DNA of 42,089 nucleotides, taken from an uncultured Mycobacteriales bacterium. GTDB taxonomy: Bacteria; Actinomycetota; Actinomycetes; Mycobacteriales; CADCTP01. A model generated the notes under the pieces. The model searched no databases. It saw only the letters and a list, made by a program, of their open reading frames with translations, and was not told the DNA's origin. Below are positions 38 to 18,585 of the stretch, one piece after another (position 1 is the first letter of the stretch; every line of letters begins with the position of its first letter). Location: the NCBI GenBank assembly GCA_902805565.1, contig CADCTP010000173.1, positions 1 through 42,089 of the forward strand, in the 5' to 3' direction. Both the position numbers and the translations under genes were made by a program.

Positions 38-871
38 TCAGCGGGCCGGCGCGGCCGGCTCCCGGAGGAACTCCGCGACCGCAGCCCCGACCTCCCCGGG
101 CCGTTCCTCGTGCGGGAAGTCACCGCAGCCGGGCAGCAGCACGAGCCGGGAGGCCGGCAGCAGCCGGGCGAACCGCTCGCCGGTGGACGGCGGCACCAGC
201 GGGTCCGCCGCACCGAACAGCAGCAGCGTCGGGACGGGCAGCCCGGCCAGCGCGTCCGGCGACCGGTCGTAGCTGAGCCGGACGCCGAGCCCGAACCGGG
301 CCATCGCCGCGCCCTGCCGCCGCAGCTGCCGGTGCCAGCGGTCCACCGAGACCGGGTCCGGGACGAAGCCGGGACCGTGCGCCGCCGCCCACCGCTGCGC
401 GAACCGGCGGCGCGGCAGGGTCCGGGCCACCACCGGGCCGAGGACCGGCGCGGCCAGCAGCCGGTAGAGGCCGAGGTTCGTCGCGTTCTCGCCGAGCGCG
501 CCGGCGGCCATCACCACCAGCCGGGACACCCGGTCGGGATGGCGGGCGGCCAGCCAGGCCGCCAGCGACCCGCCCAGCTGGCTGCCGACCACCGCCGGTG
601 CGGCCAGCCCGAGCGCGTCCAGCAGCTCGGCCAGCAGGTCCGCGGCCCGTTCCGCGGTCCAGTCCCGGGTCCGGGCGGCGGGCGACCGGCCCGCCCCGGG
701 CAGGTCCACCGCCACCACCCGGTATCCGGCCAGCGCCGGCAGCACGTCCTGCCAGGCGTCGGCGGCGCCGAGGAAGCCGTGCAGCAGCAGCACCGCCGGC
801 CCGTCCGCCGGCCCGGTCTCGTACACGTGCAGGTCGGCGCCGGTCAGGGGGATCAGCCGGCCCGGGGTCAC
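38..871 (-). CDS. alpha/beta-hydrolase-fold protein with degenerate triad
   Basis: A 277-residue alpha/beta-hydrolase fold protein with a GTG start. The family architecture is clear: the oxyanion motif HGF is at 31-33, the elbow region at 94-101 and the acidic Asp at D223 in GAADPLVP. The elbow reads VGSQLGG where active members have VGHSMGG, so the nucleophile position is Gln98. The usual catalytic His position in GCGDFPHEERP is Asp251. Two of three triad residues are therefore replaced, although H254 remains nearby. The start overlaps the stop of the upstream hydrolase gene (GTGA, 868-871), so the two are translationally coupled and this is the last gene of the cluster operon. It could be a non-hydrolytic accessory, binding or lyase-type protein. 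The fold is certain; the activity is unknown. Confidence 0.85.
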   Translation of the reverse strand: MTPGRLIPLTGADLHVYETGPADGPAVLLLHGFLGAADAWQDVLPALAGYRVVAVDLPGAGRSPAARTRDWTAERAADLLAELLDALGLAAPAVVGSQLGGSLAAWLAARHPDRVSRLVVMAAGALGENATNLGLYRLLAAPVLGPVVARTLPRRRFAQRWAAAHGPGFVPDPVSVDRWHRQLRRQGAAMARFGLGVRLSYDRSPDALAGLPVPTLLLFGAADPLVPPSTGERFARLLPASRLVLLPGCGDFPHEERPGEVGAAVAEFLREPAAPAR

Positions 872-1638
872 CGGAAGGTCTCCCGCACGAGCCGGTTGAC
901 GTCCCGGTGTGCCTCCACCGGCGGTACGTGCGCGGCCGGCAGCAGCTCCAGCCGGGCGCCGGGCAGTTCCGCGGCCAGCCGCTCGGTGAGCTCCGGCGGG
1001 AACAGCATGTCCTGCGCGCCCCCGACGACCAGGGCCGGGCAGTCCACCGCGGCGAACCAGCCGCTGCTGTCGTGCTCGATCGCCTGCCCGTAGATGCTGC
1101 GCAGCGCGGCGGTGTCGTACTGGTCGAACATCGCCTGCTTCAGCGCGGTCTCCCGGCGGGCCAGCAGCTCCGCGCCGTCCGCCGTGAACAGGAACGCCCG
1201 CAGCACCTGCCAGAAGTTCGCCAGGTCGTCGCGCTCCAGGAAGCCGTGGAGCATCCGCAGCAGGAGCCGGGTGGGCCCGTGCGGGCAGGAGAACGTCGCG
1301 ACCAGGCCGAGCCCGGCCAGCCGGCCGGGGTACCCGGCGGCGAAGTGCTGCGCGACGAGGCCGCCGTGCGACTGGCCGACCACGGTCGCCCGCGGCAGGT
1401 CCAGCCGGTCCAGCAGCGCGGCCAGGTCGGCGGCGTGCTCGGCGTTGGTCGGGAAGCCCCTGTCCGAGGGCGAGCCGCCGAAGCCGCGCATGTCGTACGT
1501 GATCACCGTGAAGTCGCGGCTGAGCTCGGGAACCTGCCGCATCCAGCCCCCGGCCAGGGTGGACAGCAGGACCAGCGGCGGTCCCGCGCCCTTGCGCCGG
1601 AGCCGGATCGCCCCGCCGGGAATGTCGACCAGGTCCAT
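868..1638 (-). CDS. alpha/beta hydrolase (cluster)
   Basis: A 256-residue alpha/beta hydrolase starting at ATG 1638. The triad looks intact: nucleophile S90 in GQSHGG, acid D210 in GGAQDMLFPP and His237 in PAAHVPPVEAH. It lies 14 bases after the AMP ligase stop and overlaps the next gene by 4 bases, so it belongs to the same operon. Family knowledge points to hydrolysis of an ester, thioester or lactone. In this setting it may act as an off-loading or editing thioesterase, but that is inference. It is paired with a catalytically degenerate homologue immediately downstream. Confidence 0.88.
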   Translation of the reverse strand: MDLVDIPGGAIRLRRKGAGPPLVLLSTLAGGWMRQVPELSRDFTVITYDMRGFGGSPSDRGFPTNAEHAADLAALLDRLDLPRATVVGQSHGGLVAQHFAAGYPGRLAGLGLVATFSCPHGPTRLLLRMLHGFLERDDLANFWQVLRAFLFTADGAELLARRETALKQAMFDQYDTAALRSIYGQAIEHDSSGWFAAVDCPALVVGGAQDMLFPPELTERLAAELPGARLELLPAAHVPPVEAHRDVNRLVRETFR

Positions 1639-1652
1639 GCCCGCCCCTCTCC

Positions 1653-3167
1653 TCACGTTCCGGTGCCGATCGACCGCCAGTCGGCGGCGGCGCCGTGCAC
1701 CCGCTCGATGACGTGCCGGCGCGGCTTGGTCGTCTCGGTCAGGCAGCCCTCGTCCACGGTGGGCAGCCGGTCGACGACCGCGTACGACCGGGCGCGCTCC
1801 CACGGGTGCAGGCCCCGGTTGACCGCGCGGACCCGGTCGGCGACGTCGGCCGGCCCGGTTCCCGGCTCGAAGAACAGCAGGGCGCCGAGCCGTCCGTCGG
1901 GCCGGACCACCAGCTGGCACAACCCGGCCCCGCAGGCCAGCCGCAGCGCGTCCTCCACCGGCGTGACGAACACCTTCTCCCCGCTGGGCAGTGGGAGGAA
2001 GTCGCGCAGCCGGCCGCGTACGGACAGGAAGCCGTCGGCGTCCAGCGTGCCCACGTCCGCGGTCGGCTCCCAGGCCCCCGGCACCCACTCGTGCCGCTCG
2101 ACCCGGCCGTCCACCAGCCGGCCGTGCAGGAACGGCGTCGGCGTGCGCACCTGTATCTCCGCGGTCCCCGGAGCCAGCCGGACCGAGCCCCACGGGATGG
2201 GCCGGCCGACCGTGCCCGGCCGCCGGGCGCCGGGGACGTTGAGGCCGATCATGCCGAGCTCGGTGGTCCCGTAGACCTCGTACACCGGGACGCCGGCCGC
2301 GATCAGCTCGGCCATCAGCCCCGGGTCGGTCGGTGCGCTGCCGACGAACAGCGCCCGCAGCGCCGGCCCGAAGACCCCCCGGTAGTCGGTCGAGCCGGAC
2401 CGGCGCAGCAGGCTGCGCACGTGCTCCAGCAGCCGTGGCACCGTGACGTGCAGGGTGGGGGCGGCCCAGGCGGTGTCGGCGACCAGGTGCGCCGGGTCGG
2501 ACAGCACGAGGTCCAGGCCGAGCCGGAGGCCGCCGTAGAGCATCATCCGCTGCGGCAGGTGGGACAGCGGCAGGTAGAGCAGCAGGCGGTCGCCGGCCCC
2601 GAAGCCGTAGAGCTCGGCGAAGCGGTCCATCGTGGCCAGCAGCGGCGCGGAGTGGACGGTGAACAGCTTCGGCTCCGACAGCGTGCCGGAGGTCGACACC
2701 ACGGTGAACGGTCCGGTCCGGGGTTCCGCCGCCGGATACCCTGCCGGGACGGACCCGGTCGGCTCCAGCGGCAGCACCGCGGCGCCGCCGGACCGGAACA
2801 GCGCGACGGCGTCGGGCCGGTCGGTGAGGACGACCCGGCAGCCGCCCTCCCGGGCCGCGGCGGCCGCCCGGGCCGGCGGGGCGCTGGAGTAGAGCGCGAC
2901 GGAGACCGCGCCGGCCAGCAGGCAGGCCAGGTCGGCCAGCACCCAGCCGTAGCTCGTCGACCCGTGGATCGCGACCCGGTCGCCCGGTCGCACCCCGTGC
3001 TCCCGCAGCAGCGCGGCCAGCGCGGCCGCCTCCGCCCGGCACCGGTCGTACGTCACCTCGACCGGCGTGCCGGCCCGGCGGAACAGCAACCGGGCGGTGG
3101 TGTTGCCGGCCATCGCGTCGACGACGGCCGGCAGCGCGCAGGTGTCGACGACCGTCCCGCCGGTCAC
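1653..3167 (-). CDS. AMP-dependent acyl-CoA synthetase/ligase
   Basis: A 504-residue ANL-superfamily adenylating enzyme. The GTG start at 3167 overlaps the stop of the preceding gene (GTGA). Motifs visible are the P-loop STSGTLSEPK (158-167), YGTTELG (299-305), the ribose-binding Asp371 in TADVGTLD, the hinge region GRLRDF around 385-390, and a C-terminal TETTKPRR with K481 as the likely catalytic lysine. The length and the C-terminal LTETTKPRR pattern resemble long-chain fatty acyl-CoA synthetases of the FadD type more than NRPS adenylation domains. It should activate a carboxylic acid as acyl-AMP and then thioester. No carrier protein is encoded nearby, so CoA is the likely acceptor. It probably supplies or modifies the acyl part of the cluster product; the substrate cannot be read from sequence. 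Confidence 0.9.
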   Translation of the reverse strand: MTGGTVVDTCALPAVVDAMAGNTTARLLFRRAGTPVEVTYDRCRAEAAALAALLREHGVRPGDRVAIHGSTSYGWVLADLACLLAGAVSVALYSSAPPARAAAAAREGGCRVVLTDRPDAVALFRSGGAAVLPLEPTGSVPAGYPAAEPRTGPFTVVSTSGTLSEPKLFTVHSAPLLATMDRFAELYGFGAGDRLLLYLPLSHLPQRMMLYGGLRLGLDLVLSDPAHLVADTAWAAPTLHVTVPRLLEHVRSLLRRSGSTDYRGVFGPALRALFVGSAPTDPGLMAELIAAGVPVYEVYGTTELGMIGLNVPGARRPGTVGRPIPWGSVRLAPGTAEIQVRTPTPFLHGRLVDGRVERHEWVPGAWEPTADVGTLDADGFLSVRGRLRDFLPLPSGEKVFVTPVEDALRLACGAGLCQLVVRPDGRLGALLFFEPGTGPADVADRVRAVNRGLHPWERARSYAVVDRLPTVDEGCLTETTKPRRHVIERVHGAAADWRSIGTGT

Positions 3168-3820
3168 GCCCGGGTCATCGCGTCGGTGAACAGCTGACCG
3201 TACGCGCGCAGCGTGTTGACCCAGGTCGCGGTCATCAGCTCGTACCGCTGCGGGGAGGTCGCCGCCCGGTCGAACGCCTTGCGGACCAGCGCGATGTGCT
3301 CCTGGTCCTCCTCGGCGTGCACCTTGAGGAAGGTGAGCGCCGGGCGGGCGAAGTCGTAGCGCACCATCGCCTCGGCCACCTTCGGCCCGAGCGTCGCGCC
3401 CAGCCCTTCGGTGGCGGCGGCGAACCCGAGCAGGGCGGCCGGGTCCTTCATGCTGACCAGCCAGTGGTTCTGGCCGACCATCGTCCAGGTGCCGAACCCG
3501 GGCAGCCCGGCCAGGTAGGTGTCCGGGTCGTGGCCCAGCCGGCGCAGGTCCTGCACGCACAGCCGGTCGTGGTGCCGCTCCTCGATGGCCAGGTTGAGGA
3601 ACCAGTCCTGCAGCCAGCCCTCCTTGCTGCGGGAGGCGGCCGCGGCGAGGAAGTACGGCGTCTGCTGGACCAGGTGGTAGGTCTCCCGCAGGTACGCCGA
3701 GTAGACGGCCGGGGTCAGCTCGCCGCCCAGGATCACCTCGACGAACGGGTGCTCGAACACGTCGGACTGCAACACCGGCGCGGTCACCGCCAGGGCCTTC
3801 TCGTACGGGCCGATCGACAT
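3164..3820 (-). CDS. heme-oxygenase-like diiron oxidase (HDO family)
   Basis: A 218-residue all-helical protein of the TenA/PqqC/heme-oxygenase-like superfamily. The metal-ligand pattern of diiron members is visible: E46-x-x-H49, E81-x-x-H84 (EERHH), E138, H168, and D172-x-x-H175 in HAEEDQEH. Characterised HDO enzymes include UndA (terminal alkene formation), BesC (C-C cleavage) and the central domain of SznF (N-oxygenation). The reaction here cannot be chosen from sequence. The ATG start lies 2 bases after the stop of the ferritin-like diiron gene, and the stop overlaps the AMP ligase start. Co-translation with another diiron enzyme suggests successive oxidative steps. Confidence 0.85.
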   Translation of the reverse strand: MSIGPYEKALAVTAPVLQSDVFEHPFVEVILGGELTPAVYSAYLRETYHLVQQTPYFLAAAASRSKEGWLQDWFLNLAIEERHHDRLCVQDLRRLGHDPDTYLAGLPGFGTWTMVGQNHWLVSMKDPAALLGFAAATEGLGATLGPKVAEAMVRYDFARPALTFLKVHAEEDQEHIALVRKAFDRAATSPQRYELMTATWVNTLRAYGQLFTDAMTRA

Positions 3821-3822
3821 GG

Positions 3823-4527
3823 TCAGCTCCCCTGTATCCCGATCCTGGACATGACGTCGTCGAACCGCACCCGGGTCCGCTCGATGTAGTCGGGGGCGAC
3901 GAAACCGGCCTGCATCGCCCAGCCGATCGACTCCTTGAGCTGCCCGCCGAGGTAGCCCTCGAGGTGCTCCCGGTACCACTTGCAGTACTCGACCGCCCGC
4001 CGGCGCGCCTCCGGGTTCTCCGCCAGCACCCGGTTGGCCACGGTGATCCCGAACGCGACGTGCCGGCGCTCCTCCCGTTCGATCCGGGCGAACTGGTAGA
4101 AGTACTCGGGCCGGCCGCGGCCGAGCTGGACCAGCTCCTCCATCGCCAGCACTCCCTCGGCGTAGAGGTTCAGCCCGATCAGCACCTCGATCTCGTCGTC
4201 GCTGTAGAACAGCTTGGCGAACCGCTCGTCGATGTCGTCGATCCGGTACGGCTGGTGGTCGAAGCCGTGCCAGGGTTGCCCGAGGTGCTCGACGCCCTCC
4301 CGGAACAGCCGGGCGTGCACCACCTCGTCGGCCGCGTGCCGGATGAGGAAGTTCTTCTCCCGCAGGCTGTCGCGGCGCGGCAGCCAGCGCGCGCACAGGT
4401 CGATGATCTCCAGCTCGGAGTAGTAGAAGTTGACGTAGACGGTGAGGATCAGGTCCCAGGCGTCCCGCCCGTACGTGTCGATGATCTGCTGCTTGAGGCT
4501 GGTGTCCGCGCGGTCGGTGGCGGTCAT
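3823..4527 (-). CDS. ferritin-like diiron oxygenase (PaaA/MiaE-like)
   Basis: A 234-residue ferritin-like helical protein. Carboxylate and His ligands appear in the expected order: E38 or E40 in YYSELE, E68-x-x-H71 in ADEVVHA, E124 in LYAEG, and E153-x-x-H156 in EREERRHVAFG. The last motif resembles those of phenylacetyl-CoA epoxidase subunits and MiaE-type hydroxylases. The protein has no ferredoxin or reductase partner in the cluster, so electrons would come from elsewhere. ATG 4527 overlaps the AhpD stop (ATGA). It is likely an oxygenase acting on the acyl or amine moiety of the product. The family assignment is firm; the reaction is unknown. Confidence 0.85.
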   Translation of the reverse strand: MTATDRADTSLKQQIIDTYGRDAWDLILTVYVNFYYSELEIIDLCARWLPRRDSLREKNFLIRHAADEVVHARLFREGVEHLGQPWHGFDHQPYRIDDIDERFAKLFYSDDEIEVLIGLNLYAEGVLAMEELVQLGRGRPEYFYQFARIEREERRHVAFGITVANRVLAENPEARRRAVEYCKWYREHLEGYLGGQLKESIGWAMQAGFVAPDYIERTRVRFDDVMSRIGIQGS

Positions 4528-5078
4528 GACGCCTCCACCGCGACCAGCACGTCCTCGACCGGGATCTGCAGTGCCTTGAGCACCCGGCTGGTGAGGTTGT
4601 ACATCCCGATGGCCAGCACGATGTTGACCACCTCGCCCGGGGTGAACGCGGCCGCCAACTCGGTCCGCATGTCGTCGGTGACGCCGTCCGGGTCCTGGGT
4701 GAGCGCGTCGGCGACCTCCAGGATCAGCGCCTCCCGCGGGTCGAAGACGCTCTGCTCGGCGTCGGGGTCCCCGATGGCGTCCAGCTCGGTGTCGACCAGG
4801 CCGGCCCGGCGGGCCGAGCGGGTCATGTGGGCCACGCAGTACGTGCACTCCAGCGAGCGCGCCGTGCCCAGCGCGGCCAGCGCCCGCAGCCGCCCGCCGA
4901 TGACGGGGGAGCGGTAGACCCCGGCCCACAGCGGGAGGAACGCCGTGGCCAGCTCGGGCGTGTTCGCCAGCGCCCGCAGGATGTTGGGGACGAAACCGTA
5001 GTCCTCCTCGACGGCCTCGAACAACCCGGCCAGCGGCGGTGGCACCGCGTCGTCGGCCAGCAGTGGGACCATGGTCAT
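4524..5078 (-). CDS. AhpD-like carboxymuconolactone decarboxylase family protein
   Basis: A 184-residue AhpD-like protein with the peroxidase-type active site E77-C-T-Y-C-V-A-H84 (ExCxxCxxH). Proteins of this family reduce peroxides or pass electrons through a vicinal cysteine pair. In a cluster with four oxidative enzymes it may detoxify peroxide released by uncoupled turnover, or act as a redox partner; both are inference. ATG 5078 was chosen because GAGGAG precedes it at normal spacing; a second in-frame ATG lies at 5072. It sits 23 bases after the halogenase stop. Confidence 0.88.
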   Translation of the reverse strand: MTMVPLLADDAVPPPLAGLFEAVEEDYGFVPNILRALANTPELATAFLPLWAGVYRSPVIGGRLRALAALGTARSLECTYCVAHMTRSARRAGLVDTELDAIGDPDAEQSVFDPREALILEVADALTQDPDGVTDDMRTELAAAFTPGEVVNIVLAIGMYNLTSRVLKALQIPVEDVLVAVEAS

Positions 5079-5101: not shown

Positions 5102-6691
5102 TCAGGTGGCCGGGACCAGCAGGCCGTAGCTGACGGCCTCGTGCACCAGGCTCTGCGCGCCCTCCCGGCCCGCCCCGCCGGTCACCAGCCGGTCGACCAG
5201 GTCGACGCTGCCGCCGGTGCCGTCGGCCAGCTCCAGCAGCCGCTCCAGCGGCGGGCTGAGTGCCAGCGACGCCCCGCCGGCCGTCCGGATCGAGCGGGCC
5301 GGCCGCAGGTGGGCGCCGTCCACGGCCAGGTCCTCGACGACCGTGAAGCCGTCCGAGCGGACCAGCGGCCGCTGCGGGTCCACGCCCACCCCGGTCGACT
5401 TGCCGTCGAAGATCTGCTCGATGGTGTCCCGCAGCTGCCCGGGCACGTCCAGCTGTCGCAGGTAGCGGCTGTACCAGGACCGGTGCGCGAACGCGCCGGC
5501 GATCAGCGAGATGAACGCCTGCTGGGGGTCGATCCCGGGCACGTCGAACTGGCTGCGGGCGTGCCAGAAGTACGAGTCCTTGTTGGTGCCGTGGCCGCCG
5601 TAGAGGAAGTAGACCTGTGCCCGCAGCCGGGCGAACTCCTTCCGGTACGCGTTCTCGTAGAAGTCCAGCACCCTGGCCCGGCCCACCTCCGGGTGGTCCA
5701 GCTCGGTGTTCACCGACACCGCCGCCAGGAACCCGGACAGCATCGCCAGGTGCACGCCGGTGGAGAACAGCGGGTCGATGAAGCAGGCCGCGTCGCCGCA
5801 GGCCACGTACCCGTCGCCGGCGAACCGGTCGTAGACGTACGACCAGTCCCGGGCGACCCGCAGCCCCTCCACCCGCCGCGCCCCGGCCAGCCGCTCGGCC
5901 AGCTCCGGGGTCCGTTCCAGCGCGGCGGTGTAGTAGGCCTCCATGCCGTCGGCGCGGTGCTTCACCAGCACGGAGCTGTCCACCACCGCGCCGATGCTGG
6001 TGACGTCGTCGCGCAGCGGGATGAACCACCACCAGCCCTCGTCGAAGGTCGGCAGGAAGGTGTTGCCCGCGTCCACCCCCGGCGGCCGGGTGGCGCCCTT
6101 CCAGTAGCTCCACACCGCGAGGTTCTTCAGGTACGGGTCCCAGCCCTGGCTGTGCAGCCGGCGGGTCACGGTGCCACCCTGGCCGGACGCGTCGACGATC
6201 CAGCGGGCCTCGGCCGTCCCGGTCCGCCCGGCGGCGTCCCGGTAGGTCACCGTGCCGGTGCCGGCGGCGTCGGCCGGCAGCGTGAAGTCGACGACCCGGT
6301 GCTCCTCGCGCACGTCGACGCCGTGCTCCCGGGCGTTGTCCAGCAGCATCTTGTCGAACGGGCCGCGCTCCACCTGGTAGCCGTAGTCGTACGGCATGGC
6401 CAGGGCGTCCTTGAAGTAGACCGTCCACGGCTCGCGGCTGTCGCCCCACACCCATTGCACGCCGTGTTTCTTGATGTACCCGTCCCGCTCGACCCGGTCC
6501 AGCACGCCGATGCGGGCCATCAGGTCCGCGGTGCCCGACAGCAGCGACTCCCCGATGTGGTAGCGCGGAAAGCGGGCCGCCTCCAGCACCAGGACGCGTT
6601 TCCCGCTGTCGGCCAGCACGGTCGAGGCCATTGCCCCGCCGGGACCGCCGCCGATCACGATGACGTCGTACGAGTCGAGTTCTCCGGGCAC
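5102..6691 (-). CDS. FAD-dependent halogenase
   Basis: A 529-residue flavoprotein with the diagnostic halogenase motifs. These are the dinucleotide-binding GGGPGG (14-19), GESLL (47-51), the region GYIKKHG with K74/K75 in the position of the catalytic lysine, W220-x-W-x-I-P225, and DPLFSTGVHLA (306-316). The last pattern matches the branch acting on phenolic, pyrrolic or small acyl substrates (PltA/CmlS-like) rather than the free-tryptophan halogenases. It needs FADH2 from a flavin reductase, and none is encoded in the cluster. The start is GTG 6691, with GAGGGG upstream. Related non-halogenating monooxygenases keep the fold but usually lose WxWxIP, so halogenation is favoured though not proven. 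The C-terminal ~110 residues are less conserved and could confer substrate choice. Confidence 0.88.
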   Translation of the reverse strand: MPGELDSYDVIVIGGGPGGAMASTVLADSGKRVLVLEAARFPRYHIGESLLSGTADLMARIGVLDRVERDGYIKKHGVQWVWGDSREPWTVYFKDALAMPYDYGYQVERGPFDKMLLDNAREHGVDVREEHRVVDFTLPADAAGTGTVTYRDAAGRTGTAEARWIVDASGQGGTVTRRLHSQGWDPYLKNLAVWSYWKGATRPPGVDAGNTFLPTFDEGWWWFIPLRDDVTSIGAVVDSSVLVKHRADGMEAYYTAALERTPELAERLAGARRVEGLRVARDWSYVYDRFAGDGYVACGDAACFIDPLFSTGVHLAMLSGFLAAVSVNTELDHPEVGRARVLDFYENAYRKEFARLRAQVYFLYGGHGTNKDSYFWHARSQFDVPGIDPQQAFISLIAGAFAHRSWYSRYLRQLDVPGQLRDTIEQIFDGKSTGVGVDPQRPLVRSDGFTVVEDLAVDGAHLRPARSIRTAGGASLALSPPLERLLELADGTGGSVDLVDRLVTGGAGREGAQSLVHEAVSYGLLVPAT

Positions 6692-6730: not shown

Positions 6731-7408
6731 TCAGCGGTAGACGTCGATGGCCGGGTCGGGGGCCATCAAGTAGCGGTAGAAATCCGATCCGCCGCGGTAG
6801 GCGCGGGAGAACAGCTCGCCGATCCGCAGTTGCAGCGCGACACTGCGGCCCGCCTCGGCCAGCTCGGTGTCGACGAACTCCAGGCCGGTCTCGACGAAGC
6901 CGAGGGCGAGCAGCGGTGCCCTCGGCGTGGTCGGCGTGCTCACGAACAGGTCGGCGACCACGTGCGAGTACGCGTTGTCCAGGCACCAGTGCAGGCAGCC
7001 CTTGACCAGCGCGGCGAGCACTCCGTACGGCATTCCCTCGATCCGCTGGTTGCGCCGGTCGGGCAGCACCATCAGGCGCTGGCACTCGATCAGCCGCGGG
7101 TCACCGGACCCCCGGATCTTGTCGATGCCCACGAACTGCTCGACCGGCAGCCCGGCCTCGGAGTCCCGGACCAGCCGCATCGTGCCGACCGGGCTCCCGC
7201 CCACCCGGGCCAGCAGGTACACCGAGTGCGGGTGGTAGCGGTCGGCGTGCAGGTGGCCGCCCGCGCCGGCGGCCAGCCAGCCGAACTCGCGGCCGTAAAC
7301 GGTGCGCCACAACTGCTCGACCTGCTGGAAATCCGATTGGGAAACGGCCGGATAAACCCCGGTCGGGCTGCTCTCCGGTTTCGGTGCGGGCGTGAATCGC
7401 CAGTCCAT
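6731..7408 (-). CDS. FeeM-like N-acyl amino acid synthase (GNAT fold)
   Basis: A 225-residue GNAT/autoinducer-synthase-fold protein. The segment VYLLARVGGSPVGTMRLV followed by an acidic residue, and the later ECQRLMV strand with the Arg-rich PDRRNQR turn, resemble FeeM/PlsC-type N-acyl amino acid synthases and LuxI-like enzymes. Characterised FeeM joins a fatty acyl-ACP to an amino acid amine. Here it is the first gene after the internal promoter (7441-7470) and hairpin, and probably installs an acyl chain on an amino acid or amine. The ATG at 7408 lacks a strong Shine-Dalgarno. A plain small-molecule acetyltransferase is the alternative. Confidence 0.75.
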   Translation of the reverse strand: MDWRFTPAPKPESSPTGVYPAVSQSDFQQVEQLWRTVYGREFGWLAAGAGGHLHADRYHPHSVYLLARVGGSPVGTMRLVRDSEAGLPVEQFVGIDKIRGSGDPRLIECQRLMVLPDRRNQRIEGMPYGVLAALVKGCLHWCLDNAYSHVVADLFVSTPTTPRAPLLALGFVETGLEFVDTELAEAGRSVALQLRIGELFSRAYRGGSDFYRYLMAPDPAIDVYR

Positions 7409-7440
7409 CGTGGCCCCAACTATTCATCGACGGTGCATCG

Positions 7441-7470
7441 ACCATAGTCGCGCCGTCGGGCCGGGGTCAA
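7441..7470 (-). promoter_or_regulatory. predicted sigma70-type promoter of the halogenase operon
   Basis: On the minus strand TTGACC (7470-7465) is followed after 18 bases by TATGGT (7446-7441). This is a good housekeeping-type promoter, about 33 bases before the FeeM-like start at 7408. It sits in one of the few AT-enriched stretches of the cluster. Confidence 0.55.
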
Positions 7471-7486
7471 CCATGCGTCTGCGCTT

Positions 7487-7534
7487 GGAAAAGCATTTGT
7501 GAGACACACCCCGGCGTCTCAGAAATACTTTTCC
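7487..7534 (-). terminator. long imperfect hairpin between cluster sub-operons
   Basis: Arms 7487-7505 and 7516-7534 are 19 bases each, pair at 17 positions and enclose a 10-base loop; the mismatches are 7494/7527 and 7499/7522. The outer ends are GGAAAAG and CTTTTCC. The hairpin begins 15 bases after the ATP-grasp stop and lies just upstream of the predicted promoter. It may terminate the first sub-operon, possibly in both directions, or act as an operator or attenuator. Confidence 0.6.
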
Positions 7535-7548
7535 GCTTAGCGAATATT

Positions 7549-9024
7549 TCAGGGCATCCCGGCCAGGACGGTGACCGTCCGGTCATACAGGGAGCGGGCG
7601 GCGGCGGCGCTGTCCGCGATCGCGATCATCCCCAGCTTGCCGAACTCGGCCAGCGCGCCCAGCGCGTAGAGGACCACCCCGGTGCCGGTCGCCGGGTCGT
7701 ACGCCAGCCGGCGCCCGGCGACCAGGTCGAGCACGGCCCCCGGCCGGGCGCCGCGCAGCCGGTCGACCAGGATGCGGTCGCCGGCGAGGTAGTGCCGCGG
7801 GCCGTGGGCCGTGACGTAGTCCCCGGTCGCCGGGTCGTACCGGCCGCGCAGCAGGGCGTGCGCGAACAGGAACGGCGCGGTCGCGCCCCCCATCCGGAGG
7901 TTGACCTCCAACCCGTAGGTCCGGGCCGGGTCGTGCCGGTCGGCGAGGAAGTCGACCGACAACTGGCCGAGCACGCCCGCGGCGGCCAACCGGTCGCCGA
8001 CCCGCAGCGCGAGCCGGCCGATCCGGGACCGGTACGCCGGGTGGGCCGGGAACGCGCAGCCGACGAACGTCAGCCCGGCCGGCCCGCCGAGCACCTGGTC
8101 GTGGGTGGACAGCATCCGCACGTCCCCGCCCGGCCGGATCTCCAGCTGGACCGACGGCGACCCCATCGCCGGGCCGGTGTGGAAGCGCTCGACCACCCCG
8201 CCCATCTCCGCCAGCTTGGCCAGGAAGCCGGCCCAGGTGTCGCCGGGCACCGCCAGCCGCTCCGGCAGCCGGTCGGCGACCCAGCCGGCCAGCCCGTCGC
8301 CGGCGGGCGCCCCGGCGTAGGAGAACACGGCGTTGCCGGCGCCGGCGAAGCTGTCGTTCAGCTTGACCACGGCCCGCTCCAGGTTTCGGTGCCGGTGCTT
8401 GAGGCCGGTCAGGGCGTCGGTCACCGCGGCCGCGGACGCCAACCCCTCGTACCCGTCCGGGACCGGGACGCCGGCCGCCCGCAGCAGGCGCCGCCCGCCG
8501 CTCTTGTCGCCGATGCCCCGCAGCCGCGGGTCGCAGCCGAACAGCGGCAGCCCGAGCCGGACCGAGAGGTCCCGCTCGCTCGTCGTGGTGGTGTAGGTGA
8601 CCAGGTAGTCGCCCCGGGCCGCGGTGATCCGGGCCAGCACGTCCGTCCGGTCGAGGATCTTGTCGGCCAGCGGCCGCGCCGAGGCGTCCCCGCAGTCGAT
8701 CAGGGTCAGCCGGTCGCGGGCGCCGGTCGTGCCGGTGACGGCGAGCGCGGATTCCACGGTGTCCGGGTCGACCGGGCGGCTGGTGACGTACACGACCCGG
8801 GCGCGGGGGGCGCGCAGCCGGGCGAGCTCGAACAGCAGCCGCTCCTCGAAGTGCACGGCGCCGGGGATCTTGCGCAGCTCGTCCGGGTGCAGGGTGATGC
8901 TCGGCACCACGACCGTCGTCGCCGGGCCGTCCAGCAGCGGTCCGAGCCGCCCCTGCAGCAGCGCGAACCGCTCCGCCACGCCCGTCCCGCGCTCTCCGGT
9001 CCGGCGTGGGGATCCCGCCGTCAT
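7549..9024 (-). CDS. ATP-grasp peptide ligase (PGM1-like)
   Basis: A 491-residue ATP-grasp ligase resembling the peptide ligase PGM1 of pheganomycin biosynthesis. The N-terminal pre-ATP-grasp part contains LHPDELRKIPGAVHFEERL (46-64). The ATP-grasp core has lysines near K174 and K221 and the Mg-binding E373-x-N375-x-R377 in GLEVNLRMGG. A C-terminal extension of about 110 residues follows. Enzymes of this type activate a carboxylate as acyl phosphate and couple it to an amine, often using a peptide or unusual amino acid. ATG 9024 overlaps the stop of the oxygenase gene (ATGA). Together with the FeeM-like enzyme it supplies the amide chemistry that an NRPS would otherwise provide. The family call is from recognition of conserved segments, without alignment. 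Confidence 0.8.
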   Translation of the reverse strand: MTAGSPRRTGERGTGVAERFALLQGRLGPLLDGPATTVVVPSITLHPDELRKIPGAVHFEERLLFELARLRAPRARVVYVTSRPVDPDTVESALAVTGTTGARDRLTLIDCGDASARPLADKILDRTDVLARITAARGDYLVTYTTTTSERDLSVRLGLPLFGCDPRLRGIGDKSGGRRLLRAAGVPVPDGYEGLASAAAVTDALTGLKHRHRNLERAVVKLNDSFAGAGNAVFSYAGAPAGDGLAGWVADRLPERLAVPGDTWAGFLAKLAEMGGVVERFHTGPAMGSPSVQLEIRPGGDVRMLSTHDQVLGGPAGLTFVGCAFPAHPAYRSRIGRLALRVGDRLAAAGVLGQLSVDFLADRHDPARTYGLEVNLRMGGATAPFLFAHALLRGRYDPATGDYVTAHGPRHYLAGDRILVDRLRGARPGAVLDLVAGRRLAYDPATGTGVVLYALGALAEFGKLGMIAIADSAAAARSLYDRTVTVLAGMP

Positions 9025-9824
9025 CCCCAGGCGACGGCGTGCTCCAGCGCGTCGTCGCCGCCGAAGAAGAAGCCGACCGTCAGCCGGTCGTCCCCGCTGA
9101 CCTCGAGGATCTCGTGGTAGTGCCTCGGGTTGAGCACGTAGACGTCGTGCGCCTGCGGCGCGAACTCCAGCGCCGGCACCCCGGCGACCACGCCGTGGTC
9201 GTAGCCGAGCCCGCCGGGGATCTTGAACCGCTCGTCGGCGGGCTCCCAGGTCTTGGCGTAGATCTTCGACTCGCCGCCGCCCTGGCACTCCTGCAGGCAG
9301 ATCACGCAACTGAGCTGGTACGCCAGCCCCGCCACGGTCAGCCCCGTGCCGGCGGCGTCCCGGGCGATCAGGTCGTTGTGCATCGGGTTGGCCACCCCGT
9401 CCGGGTGGATGCGCACGCAGGCACCGGCGTACCGCCGGCCGCCGGGCTCCTCGGCCAGGTCGACCCGCAGCCCGAGTACCCGCTCGAAGGCGGCCCGCAC
9501 CTCGTCGGCGACGGTGAACCCGACCTGCGCGCAGAGCGCGTTCATCCGCTCCGCCTCGGCGAAGTAGCGGTCCGGGTCGTCGAGGTGCTTGGCCAGGTAC
9601 GGCCCGATCGTGGTCAGCTTGCCGTTGGCGTAGTACGTCGTCGCGGCGTGTTCGTAGAGCGTGGCGGCCCGCTCCCGATGCCGCTCGAACGCCGCCGCCG
9701 GCAGCAGGCCGCGCAGCACCAGGACGCCGATGTCGCCGTCGATCAGCGCCCGCAGCGCCTCCCGGCCCACCGGGTCCACTCCGACCCGGCGGATGTCGGC
9801 TCCCCACTGCGAGGTGGTGGTCAT
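9021..9824 (-). CDS. Fe(II)/2-oxoglutarate-dependent oxygenase
   Basis: A 267-residue double-stranded beta-helix oxygenase. The facial triad is H149-x-D151 in PMHNDLIA and a distal His in RHYHEI (H235 or H237), with R247 in DDRLTVGFFFG as the 2-oxoglutarate-binding arginine. The Asp in HxD argues for hydroxylation, desaturation or ring chemistry rather than halogenation, because Fe/2OG halogenases replace this Asp with Gly or Ala. ATG 9824 overlaps the exporter stop (ATGA) and the stop overlaps the ATP-grasp start, so the three genes form a tight unit. It probably tailors an amino acid before or after ligation. Confidence 0.85.
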   Translation of the reverse strand: MTTTSQWGADIRRVGVDPVGREALRALIDGDIGVLVLRGLLPAAAFERHRERAATLYEHAATTYYANGKLTTIGPYLAKHLDDPDRYFAEAERMNALCAQVGFTVADEVRAAFERVLGLRVDLAEEPGGRRYAGACVRIHPDGVANPMHNDLIARDAAGTGLTVAGLAYQLSCVICLQECQGGGESKIYAKTWEPADERFKIPGGLGYDHGVVAGVPALEFAPQAHDVYVLNPRHYHEILEVSGDDRLTVGFFFGGDDALEHAVAWG

Positions 9825-10801
9825 GGGCGGGATCCCTTCGGGACAGCGGTCGCCCGCGCCGCCGTGGACCCGGCGGGGGTGGACCGTGGTGGGCGGGTGA
9901 GCAGCACGCCGGCGAGCACCACGGCGACGCCGACGGCGGTGTTCCAGTGCAGCGGCTCGTGCAGCAGCAGCGTGCCGAACGCGATCGACCAGATCGGGAT
10001 CACGTACGTGACCGTCGAGGCGACGGTGGGACCGGCGATCCGGATGATCCGCAGGTTGAGGAGGAAGGCGAAGCCCGTGCCGACCGCGCCGAGCACGACC
10101 AGGCCGGCCAGCGGTCCCGGGCCCGGCCACGTCGGCAGCCCGTTGCCGATCGGCGCCGCGACCGCCATCGCGGTGGTCGCGCAGACGAGTTGGGTGGCGG
10201 TCAGCGCCGTGGCCGATCCCGGCCGGCCGGAGAAGAACCGGCGGGTGTAGGCGAACCCGCAGCCGATGAGCACGGGGGAGGCCAGGCAGGCCAGGCCGCC
10301 GGCCAGGGTGGCGTCGCCGACGCCGGACCAGACCCCGAGGACGACCAGCACACCGGCGAAGCCGATCGCGAGCCCGGCGAGGCGGCGCGGGGTGAGCTGC
10401 TCCTGCGGGACCAGCAGCGGCACGGCCAGCAGTGTGGTCAACGGGACGGTGGCGTTCAGCACCCCGGCGAGCACCGAGCTCACCTGCGTCTCCCCGTACG
10501 CCAGGAAGGAGGAAGGCAGCGCGTTGAGCAGCAGCGCCACCACCGCGGCGTGCACCCAGGTGCTCCGGTCCGCGGGCAGCCGGTCGCTGCGGACCACGCA
10601 GACCGCCAGCAGCGCGGCAGCGCCGAACGCACACCGGGCGAAGGCCACCCACAGCGGCTCCAGGCCGGCGTCGACAGCGACCTTGATCAGCGCGAAGCTG
10701 GAGCCCCAGACCGCTGACAACACGAGGAAGTCCGGCGCCCAGCGGCGCACCTCACTGCCCGGCACGGCACCATCGTCCGAACAGCGGATGGCGCTGTCCA
10801 A
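9821..10801 (-). CDS. EamA/DMT-family exporter (cluster)
   Basis: A ten-helix drug/metabolite transporter made of two EamA repeats. WGSSFALIKVA near the first helix and VTYVIPIWSIAFG in the second repeat are typical. It is the first gene of the cluster and probably exports the product or a precursor. The reading frame opens at TTG 10801 (326 residues), but GTG 10765 (314 residues) is equally plausible, because an AT-rich hexamer that could be a -10 box lies at 10801-10806. Repeated TCATGA palindromes sit just upstream. A second, frameshifted EamA gene occurs at 30883-31868. Confidence 0.85.
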   Translation of the reverse strand: MDSAIRCSDDGAVPGSEVRRWAPDFLVLSAVWGSSFALIKVAVDAGLEPLWVAFARCAFGAAALLAVCVVRSDRLPADRSTWVHAAVVALLLNALPSSFLAYGETQVSSVLAGVLNATVPLTTLLAVPLLVPQEQLTPRRLAGLAIGFAGVLVVLGVWSGVGDATLAGGLACLASPVLIGCGFAYTRRFFSGRPGSATALTATQLVCATTAMAVAAPIGNGLPTWPGPGPLAGLVVLGAVGTGFAFLLNLRIIRIAGPTVASTVTYVIPIWSIAFGTLLLHEPLHWNTAVGVAVVLAGVLLTRPPRSTPAGSTAARATAVPKGSRP

Positions 10802-14439: not shown

Positions 14440-15319
14440 CCGACGTCGAGGACCTGCTGGCCCGCACCCTGCGCGACCCGGACCGGGCGTTGCCGGCCCC
14501 GGCCGACCCGATGCCGGCGATCCGGCCCCGGGTCCGCCGGCAGCGCCGGACCACAGTCCTGGCCGCGGCCGCGGTCGTGCTGGCCGTGGCGGGCGCGCTG
14601 GCCGTCCCCGCCACGCTCACCCGGCTGACCCGGCCGCTGCCGGTGGCCACCGACCCGCCCCCGGCGTCCTCCGGCCTGCTTCCCTGGGCGGCCCGCGGCC
14701 CGCTCACCGGCGACACCGGGCTGGTCGCCGACGCGGCCCGGGTCTGGCGGGACGCCGGTGGGCCGGCCGACGCCCGGCTGCTGTGGGCCGGACCGGTGGA
14801 CACGGCCCGGGTCGTGCTCCTGCAGGGCACCGCCGGGGACGGCGGGGCCCGGGAGCTGCCGGCGAGCCCGCTCCGGCAGCCGGTCTCGGTGGGGGTGCTC
14901 GACGACTCCAGCACCGTCAACCTCCGGCGGGCGGGGACGGTGCGCCCGGTCCTCTACGAGCTGCGGCAGGCCGGCCGGACGTACGTGGGCTGGATCGTCT
15001 GGGTGCGGGACCGGCCGGAGTGTGCGCAGGTCCAGGACATCACCGACGCCGGCCAGCCGGACGCCGTGGTGGTGCGCTGCGCGCTGGGCGGGGACGGTCT
15101 GTACTGGGTCGCCCTGCACGAGGGCATCCGGCTTGCTGGGCTCCGGCTCGACCCGGCCGGCCCGGGACAGCAGGTCGAGGACTCCGAGTACGCCCCCGCG
15201 CTCGAGGGCGGGCTGATCGCGGTGAAGTCACCGCTCCCGACGGGTCCCGGCCAGGTTCGGCTGGTCGACGACGCGGCAGGCCCCGGCCGCCGATCAGCCT
15301 GCCGCCCTACCGCCCCTAG
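14436..15319 (+). pseudogene. SigE-linked membrane protein, 3' frameshift
   Basis: A membrane-anchored partner of the SigE-like factor: about 45 cytoplasmic residues, one helix (VLAAAAVVLAVAGALAVPATL), then an extracytoplasmic domain with C-terminal strands. The frame from ATG 14436 finds no stop and stays open to 17810, antisense through katG, which is not believable. Adding one base near 15274 (GACGCGGC read as GACGCCGGC) would end the protein at TAG 15317-15319 as RPPISLPPYRP, about 294 residues. I take that as the real gene. It probably modulates the sigma factor; no zf-HC2 motif is seen. Confidence 0.65.
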
Positions 15320-15445
15320 GCCGGGGCGCGGCCGACAACTCCCGGACCGCGCCGGTCAGGTGTCCATGGACGGCGGGGCGTGGACCTTCGAGGGCACCGG
15401 GACACCCTCCGACCCGGCGGCCGGCCCGCGTCGGCCGGGACAGCC

Positions 15446-15487
15446 GGATGCCCCGGCCCGCGGGTGGGCGGGCCGGGGCATCCGGTC
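15446..15487 (-). terminator. strong katG terminator, possibly bidirectional
   Basis: Perfect 18-base arms (15446-15463 and 15470-15487) enclose the six-base loop GGGTGG. The hairpin begins 10 bases after the katG stop on the minus strand and lies between convergent genes, so it could also stop transcription arriving from the SigE locus. There is no T-tract, as is common in high-GC actinobacteria. Confidence 0.8.
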
Positions 15488-15497
15488 GGGCCAGGGT

Positions 15498-18192
<2,695 letters not shown>

Positions 18193-18198
18193 GCGAAC

Positions 18199-18229
18199 AT
18201 CATCACGCGCAGTCTTGATTAGGTCAAGA
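18199..18229 (-). promoter_or_regulatory. furA promoter with Fur box
   Basis: TCTTGA-N5-TCAAGA (18213-18229) is a perfect inverted repeat of FurA-box type. On the minus strand TTGACC (18227-18222) and, 17 bases later, GATGAT (18204-18199) form a promoter whose -35 lies inside the box. Bound FurA would block RNA polymerase. The GTG start at 18192 is only six bases past the -10. Confidence 0.75.
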
Positions 18230-18278
18230 TGCGCGCGCCGGCCAGGCATCGTCCGCCTGTCCCAGCGGAGGTGCCCCG

Positions 18279-18440
18279 ATGTCCCGGTACTCGATGGAAC
18301 CCGCCGAGATCGACGCCGTCCACGACCGGACCACGGTCCTGGGGAACGAACTGGTGGACCAGTACGAAGCGGTGCGCCGGCCGCTGGCCACGGCCGGGGA
18401 CGCGACCGGCGGCAGCGGTCTCGTCGACCTGGCGGGATGA
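18279..18440 (+). CDS. 53-residue WXG100/EspC-like small protein
   Basis: A short reading frame of 53 residues with GGAGG (18267-18271) before ATG 18279. The protein begins MSRYSMEPAEIDAVHDRT and continues as one amphipathic helix (TTVLGNELVDQYEAVRRPL), like the first half of EspC/WXG100-type secretion targets. Family members are near 100 residues, so this looks truncated at a Gly/Ser-rich tail. It is divergent from furA. No type VII secretion genes are nearby. Confidence 0.5.
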   Translation: MSRYSMEPAEIDAVHDRTTVLGNELVDQYEAVRRPLATAGDATGGSGLVDLAG

Positions 18441-18585
18441 CGCGGTGGCCGGGGCGCGAGTCCACCCCGGGCGGAGCATCCGGTGCTGCCGCGGTGCGGG
18501 CGGCATGCGGCGCAGCAGGTGCCGAGTCCTGCCGGTGGTGAGGCCTGATCGGCTCAGGAAGGGTGCGGCAGGGCTCCCGGCCGGG

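Follow-up and report, generated by a model that had tools for sequence, protein, structure and literature searches.

The two diiron folds represented by ferritin-like dimetal oxidases (FDOs) and heme-oxygenase-like dimetal oxidases (HDOs) have been compared mechanistically in a review whose available text counts about a dozen functionally validated HDOs among more than 10,000 known (PMC13108848). Both folds meet in the ham and pvf clusters, where, in the accessible portions of the two sources, a predicted haem-oxygenase-like protein, HamA or PvfA, accompanies an AurF-like diiron N-oxygenase, HamC or PvfB (PMC11659414, PMC10194917). HDOs are also encoded with ATP-grasp ligases, with at least 25 such cluster types and 1447 HDOs on record, a recognised setting for amino-acid tailoring according to the part of PMC13185094 at hand; in the chloramphenicol cluster, the gene for the AMP ligase CmlK adjoins that for the halogenase CmlS, with the gene roles in dichloroacetylation called obscure in the section seen of PMC4249514. 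An FDO gene and an HDO gene lie back to back in a 42,089-nucleotide stretch of DNA from an uncultured Mycobacteriales bacterium (CADCTP010000173.1, one whole contig, hereafter the window). At a probability of roughly 60%, this pair provides the oxidative core of a rare, orphan operon for a natural product, both enzymes oxidising consecutive intermediates of one molecule; tandem action on one substrate is plausible but unproven.

The first-pass annotation of the window had described two open reading frames with unrelated dimetal-oxidase folds, two bases apart and followed by an acyl-activating ligase, and its coordinates proved accurate, with both frames on the minus strand: two bases separate the FDO stop from the HDO ATG, and the HDO stop is overlapped by the GTG start of the ligase. 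Three further loci, all in Pseudonocardiaceae (Actinokineospora bangkokensis, L005; Saccharothrix tamanrassetensis, L006; Lentzea terrae, L007), were recovered by scanning 84,980 species, each represented by a single genome; because short exact peptide matches were needed, the scan reaches close relatives only and may miss more distant FDOs. A colinear eight-gene block, in the order GNAT, FAD halogenase, CMD, FDO, HDO, AMP ligase and two alpha/beta hydrolases, is present at all four loci, with 61–83% identity in the three relatives and with EamA and ATP-grasp genes nearby in each case, so the claim of a conserved pairing stands for every known locus, always within one operon. In L005 and L007 the two genes overlap by 4 bases (ATGA), and in L006 a single base lies between them. 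Among six genes compared between the window and its relatives, FDO and HDO have the highest protein identity (77–82%) and the lowest dN/dS (0.29–0.39, with synonymous sites uncorrected for codon bias).

Matches to FDO are sparse beyond these loci: a search of 394 genomes of the class returned the window's own genome and one weak match (G016, E=7e-4, 26%), a profile search of 150 relatives returned the own genome alone, with the one listed genome of the same genus lacking the gene, and plasmid records searched with FDO gave no match. So few matches across the class and the relatives indicate a rare and patchy block; its GC content is similar to that of the rest of the window, giving no sign of recent transfer. 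The own genome holds six PF14518 and three PF11583 matches, none of the latter three sharing its contig with a match to HDO; the class-wide lists compiled as background to the pairing include at least 236 and at least 197 of the 394 genomes, among the matches listed.

In all four aligned FDO sequences, E38, E68, H71, E124, E153 and H156 are invariant, reproducing the six-ligand E/ExxH/E/ExxH pattern of the FDO superfamily; the two motifs originally called, E68xxH71 and E153xxH156, are correct, and E38 and E124 complete the set. From these ligands the protein would be a diiron enzyme. No Pfam family exceeds its cut-off in FDO. Foldseek matches the predicted model (mean pLDDT 75) to PaaA, R2lox, R2 and ADO chains with probability 1.00 and no E-value below 1e-3, and VIA-align Z scores for R2 (14.0), the VlmB azoxy synthase (13.8), cADO (13.7) and R2lox (13.6) are tied within 1 Z and close to the general helical-bundle level, for which reason no functional subclass is taken from the fold search.

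Dob3/AurF FDO N-oxygenases carry a seventh histidine four residues ahead of the glutamate of the last ExxH, as stated in the accessible text of PMC13061610. The corresponding FDO residue is Ile149 in 4/4 sequences, making AurF-type N-oxidation unlikely, and the AurF model scores 14.8 bits against a cut-off of 29.6; assignment as an AurF/CmlI/Dob3-type N-oxygenase is ruled against on both counts, and the earlier suggestion that FDO performs N-oxidation is correspondingly weakened. The closest NCBIfam match is R2lox (E=7.2e-7), at 28.7 bits far from the cut-off of 194, and the position aligned with Y162, which we take to be the tyrosine of the R2lox Tyr–Val crosslink, is Leu119 in all four sequences; FDO is not assigned to R2lox.

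For HDO, E46, E81, H84, E138, H168, D172 and H175 are invariant in the four sequences. Of the ligands first proposed, H49 falls away, being Phe in Actinokineospora and no ligand, and the remainder hold. The core-helix ligand count of HDOs is three histidines and three carboxylates in the part consulted of PMC13108848, and E46, E81, H84, H168, D172 and H175 supply exactly these in 4/4 sequences; from such ligands, binding of two metals and activation of O2 would be expected. PF14518 (iron-containing redox enzyme) matches above its cut-off (E=1.5e-16), with TENA_THI-4 at just 1.1e-4, and the best PDB sequence match is 3dde, at 1.2e-14 for the single sequence and 1.2e-15 for the four-sequence profile, followed in the latter by weak matches to CADD/pABA synthase and BesC, with TenA last. 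The CADD model is matched weakly (E=1.2e-6, far from its cut-off), and the BesC equivalog model scores 13 bits against an NCBIfam cut-off of 500, setting aside BesC orthology. The residue seven ahead of E81, presumably equivalent by spacing to the auxiliary-helix glutamate of SznF (no SznF sequence being in the alignment), is Phe74 in 4/4 sequences.

Separation from non-metal TenA proteins is likewise borne out. In a 42-row tree, sampling 8 of 30 PF14518 loci and 16 of 20 TenA loci and built without PqqC, all 16 rows for TenA cluster together (100/100), excluding TenA membership, and the four rows of the window clade form a second group (100/100) on the PF14518 side, on a long branch of their own; L091 (frame length mismatched with its table) and L097, L103 and L104 (partial or weak) stand outside the tree. 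All seven positions are shared by the four window-clade rows, 3dde, a Variovorax row and the actinobacterial row L082, and by 0/16 TenA rows; at the E46-aligned position the other distant HDO rows differ, through either misalignment or real difference. Two actinobacterial sequences, L083 and L084, form long branches within the PF14518 group and may be misplaced. In the same two (L083, about 7171–7731; L084, about 6966–7535), of the 11 distant HDO relatives, Asp replaces the helix-2 His ligand.

HDO relatives elsewhere keep other company. Five of 72,556 plasmid records encode relatives with 24–30% identity, and in 5/5, from Variovorax and Pseudoalteromonas hosts, the operon reads ‘thermostable hemolysin’ (PF12261), AMP ligase, HDO, SDR and TPR protein (by annotation in three, by tblastn in two); a literature search on this operon found nothing. 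Comparison of the window GNAT with the ‘thermostable hemolysin’ gave a probability of 0.1, with both profiles shallow; no relation being detected, homology of these genes is not claimed. Among 11 of the 12 more distant actinobacterial matches outside the window (a twelfth, which contains an in-frame stop, is excluded), none has an FDO like that of the window in its neighbourhood, and three have a match to the window-type AMP ligase within about 5 kb. With an AMP ligase beside HDO on plasmids and near it in 3/11 of these neighbourhoods, that pairing recurs, and FDO joins it in the clade of the window alone.

Family names of the surrounding genes (Table 1) were assigned from Pfam and NCBIfam. 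The FAD halogenase aligns to both CmlS and CndH over about 375–400 residues with E about 1e-90, including the sequence WWWFIP (WxWxIP) and K75, which we take to be the halogenase motif and the catalytic lysine of CmlS-type FAD halogenases, respectively; at 303 bits against a cut-off of 900 for the CmlS equivalog model, it is not CmlS itself. About 140 bases separate the GNAT gene from that of the ATP-grasp ligase, which resembles BesA (E=4.4e-37, well below the family cut-off) and points to a short peptide product. In the WelO5-like protein, an HxD motif is present but lies two residues out of register with the iron site of WelO5 in the pairwise alignment, so that halogenase and hydroxylase are indistinguishable. 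No carrier protein, nonribosomal peptide synthetase (NRPS) or polyketide synthase (PKS) was recognised among the ten proteins covered by the Pfam scan.

Table 1. Genes of the window block and copies of the plasmid HDO operon
Feature	Coordinates	Strand	Details
FDO, 234 aa, ferritin-like dimetal oxidase	4527->3823	minus	stop TGA
HDO, 218 aa, heme-oxygenase-like dimetal oxidase	3820-3164	minus	start ATG; Pfam PF14518
AMP-binding acyl/aryl-activating ligase	1653..3167	minus	GTG start; Pfam/NCBIfam
Alpha/beta hydrolase 1	868..1638	minus	Pfam/NCBIfam
Alpha/beta hydrolase 2	38..871	minus	NCBIfam; contig end just beyond
CMD / peroxidase-related enzyme, CxxC	4524..5078	minus	Pfam/NCBIfam
CmlS/CndH-type FAD halogenase	5102..6691	minus	Pfam/NCBIfam; alignment to CmlS, CndH
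GNAT acyltransferase, FeeM/autoinducer-synthase-like	6731..7408	minus	Pfam/NCBIfam
ATP-grasp ligase, BesA-like, PGM1_C domain	7549..9024	minus	Pfam/NCBIfam
WelO5-like 2-oxoglutarate enzyme	9021..9824	minus	Pfam
EamA-type exporter	9821..10750	minus	Pfam
Plasmid operon, L030	5825-10215		
Plasmid operon, L031	5838-10056		
Plasmid operon, L073	2825-7210		
Plasmid operon, L072	2884-7053		
Plasmid operon, L113	2884-7053		

The interval between the EamA and ATP-grasp genes is variable. The WelO5-like gene occupies it in the window only, with no match in the genomes of the three relatives; a nitronate-monooxygenase (NMO)-family gene takes its place in Actinokineospora (17338–18336) and Saccharothrix (16869–17936), and an antiporter-like open reading frame, named from sequence alone, in Lentzea. 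The single NMO-family match in the window's own genome (45%) is on another contig and has an in-frame stop. Second, more distant ATP-grasp paralogues occur in Actinokineospora (G394:C9:392274-393653, 47%) and Saccharothrix (G395:C5:455023-456153, 40%), and beside the Lentzea block lie genes for a TauD-type dioxygenase and an Asp/Glu racemase–DUF6025 fusion (14621–17427). Elsewhere in the window, genes that by eye we take to be catalase-peroxidase-like (15498–17714) and Fur-type regulator-like (17731–18465) lie side by side.

A route can be proposed in which we infer the reaction order, common substrate, metal and product of the FDO/HDO pair. A small acid would be activated by the AMP ligase; the GNAT and ATP-grasp ligase would build amide bonds to give a short acyl-amino-acid or dipeptide-like product; and the halogenase would chlorinate an activated carbon. 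FDO and HDO would oxidise consecutive intermediates, both using O2 at a two-metal site. For FDO, with its plain set of four Glu and two His, a C–H or aldehyde-type oxidation such as hydroxylation or desaturation would be likelier than N-oxygenation of the AurF type; HDO, in which the ligand motif of UndA/BesC/HrmI-type enzymes is preserved, would act afterwards by C–C cleavage, desaturation or N-oxygenation, of which the first and last, as first suggested, may apply. Hydrolases would trim or release the product for export by EamA. Judged by these genes, the product is probably small, acyl- or amino-acid-derived and chlorinated; an antibiotic-like character is probable, and chlorination of such an antibiotic-like molecule possible.

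Several observations weigh against consecutive oxidation of one molecule by the pair: the FDO model is of moderate quality with its nearest folds tied, the predicted HDO structure is poor (mean pLDDT 45.7), no FDO lies beside HDO in the three annotated plasmid neighbourhoods, the searched data hold four loci in total, three of them from one family, and a shared operon alone is no proof of a shared substrate. The strongest competing explanation, a minority prospect, is that each enzyme of the pair has its own building block (say, an acyl part for one and an amino-acid part for the other), the ligases joining these later and the adjacency of the genes reflecting operon packing only. At least three joining enzymes in the operon (AMP ligase, GNAT and ATP-grasp) are consistent with this, as is the occurrence of HDO homologues beside an AMP ligase without FDO; the direct adjacency of the two genes at 4/4 loci, with overlapping or 1–2-base junctions, and the similarly strong constraint on both argue against it.

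Doubtful, and less probable than separate building blocks, is a more specific form of consecutive oxidation, in which FDO oxidises a carbon, HDO cleaves a C–C bond or oxygenates nitrogen (possibly to nitro), and the carbon thereby acidified is the site of chlorination by the CmlS-type halogenase. The outcome would be a new class of chlorinated, oxidatively tailored small peptide, made by an FDO of an undescribed family and an HDO of an undescribed subfamily acting in relay on one substrate; if true, the two diiron folds would work in succession outside diazeniumdiolate pathways. Nitro formation with chlorination of the adjacent carbon is a guess, based solely on the NMO gene of two relatives and the type of halogenase.

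Somewhat less likely again is N–N or N–O chemistry, with one diiron enzyme installing a hydroxylamine or nitroso function and its partner completing a diazeniumdiolate, azoxy or nitro group. NMO-family genes in the clusters of 2/3 relatives would suit such chemistry, as would the place of the VlmB azoxy synthase among the tied FDO structural matches; the window block itself lacks an NMO-family gene, and PF03060 also includes enoyl-reductase-like flavoproteins. The pairing of HamA/PvfA with HamC/PvfB offers a precedent in the portions available of PMC11659414 and PMC10194917, set against which the block is without an NRPS and FDO has neither the seventh histidine of PMC13061610, as far as its accessible text defines it, nor an AurF score above the cut-off. 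That one partner is no substrate oxidase, FDO serving in a radical or redox helper role like that of R2 or R2lox, or HDO being a CADD-type self-sacrificing enzyme, is very improbable, the nearest-match status of R2lox and the weak CADD match being offset by widely missed cut-offs and by Leu119 at the position we assume for the crosslink tyrosine.

With consecutive oxidation by FDO and HDO the favoured explanation, the block could directly test tandem action of two unrelated diiron folds on one molecule; its compact context, the lack of any recognised NRPS or PKS, and gene-level conservation in four genomes make complete reconstitution in vitro a practical goal.

Among described systems, no cluster with a non-AurF FDO, an HDO, a CmlS-type halogenase and a GNAT was found in the open-licence PMC literature, a weak absence; partial likenesses are several. 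The HDO alone is closest to the 3dde type, its best PDB sequence match. The plasmid operon shares the AMP ligase directly beside HDO, and differs in having SDR and TPR genes in place of FDO and a halogenase. Like the bes and mbo (mangotoxin) clusters, the window locus places an HDO near a BesA-like ATP-grasp ligase; unlike them, it has an FDO and a FAD halogenase and no recognised BesB/BesD/MboB-type partners. An AMP ligase, a CmlS-type FAD halogenase and a diiron FDO are shared with the chloramphenicol cluster (CmlK/CmlS/CmlI), as presented in the section seen of PMC4249514, whereas the window block is without a carrier protein or CmlP-type NRPS, its FDO is not CmlI-like, and it has an HDO in addition. 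The two oxidase types also meet in the ham/pvf type of diazeniumdiolate cluster (fragin, valdiazen), where, by the available text of PMC11659414 and PMC10194917, a ferritin-like diiron oxygenase shares its operon with a heme-oxygenase-like protein. There the pair accompanies an NRPS and the ferritin-like enzyme is of AurF type; the window block, in which no NRPS was found among the ten proteins scanned and FDO lacks the seventh histidine, has a halogenase, GNAT, AMP ligase and ATP-grasp ligase instead and is not a ham/pvf cluster. Since an FDO and an HDO already occur together in ham/pvf, the window pair is a variation on an existing kind.

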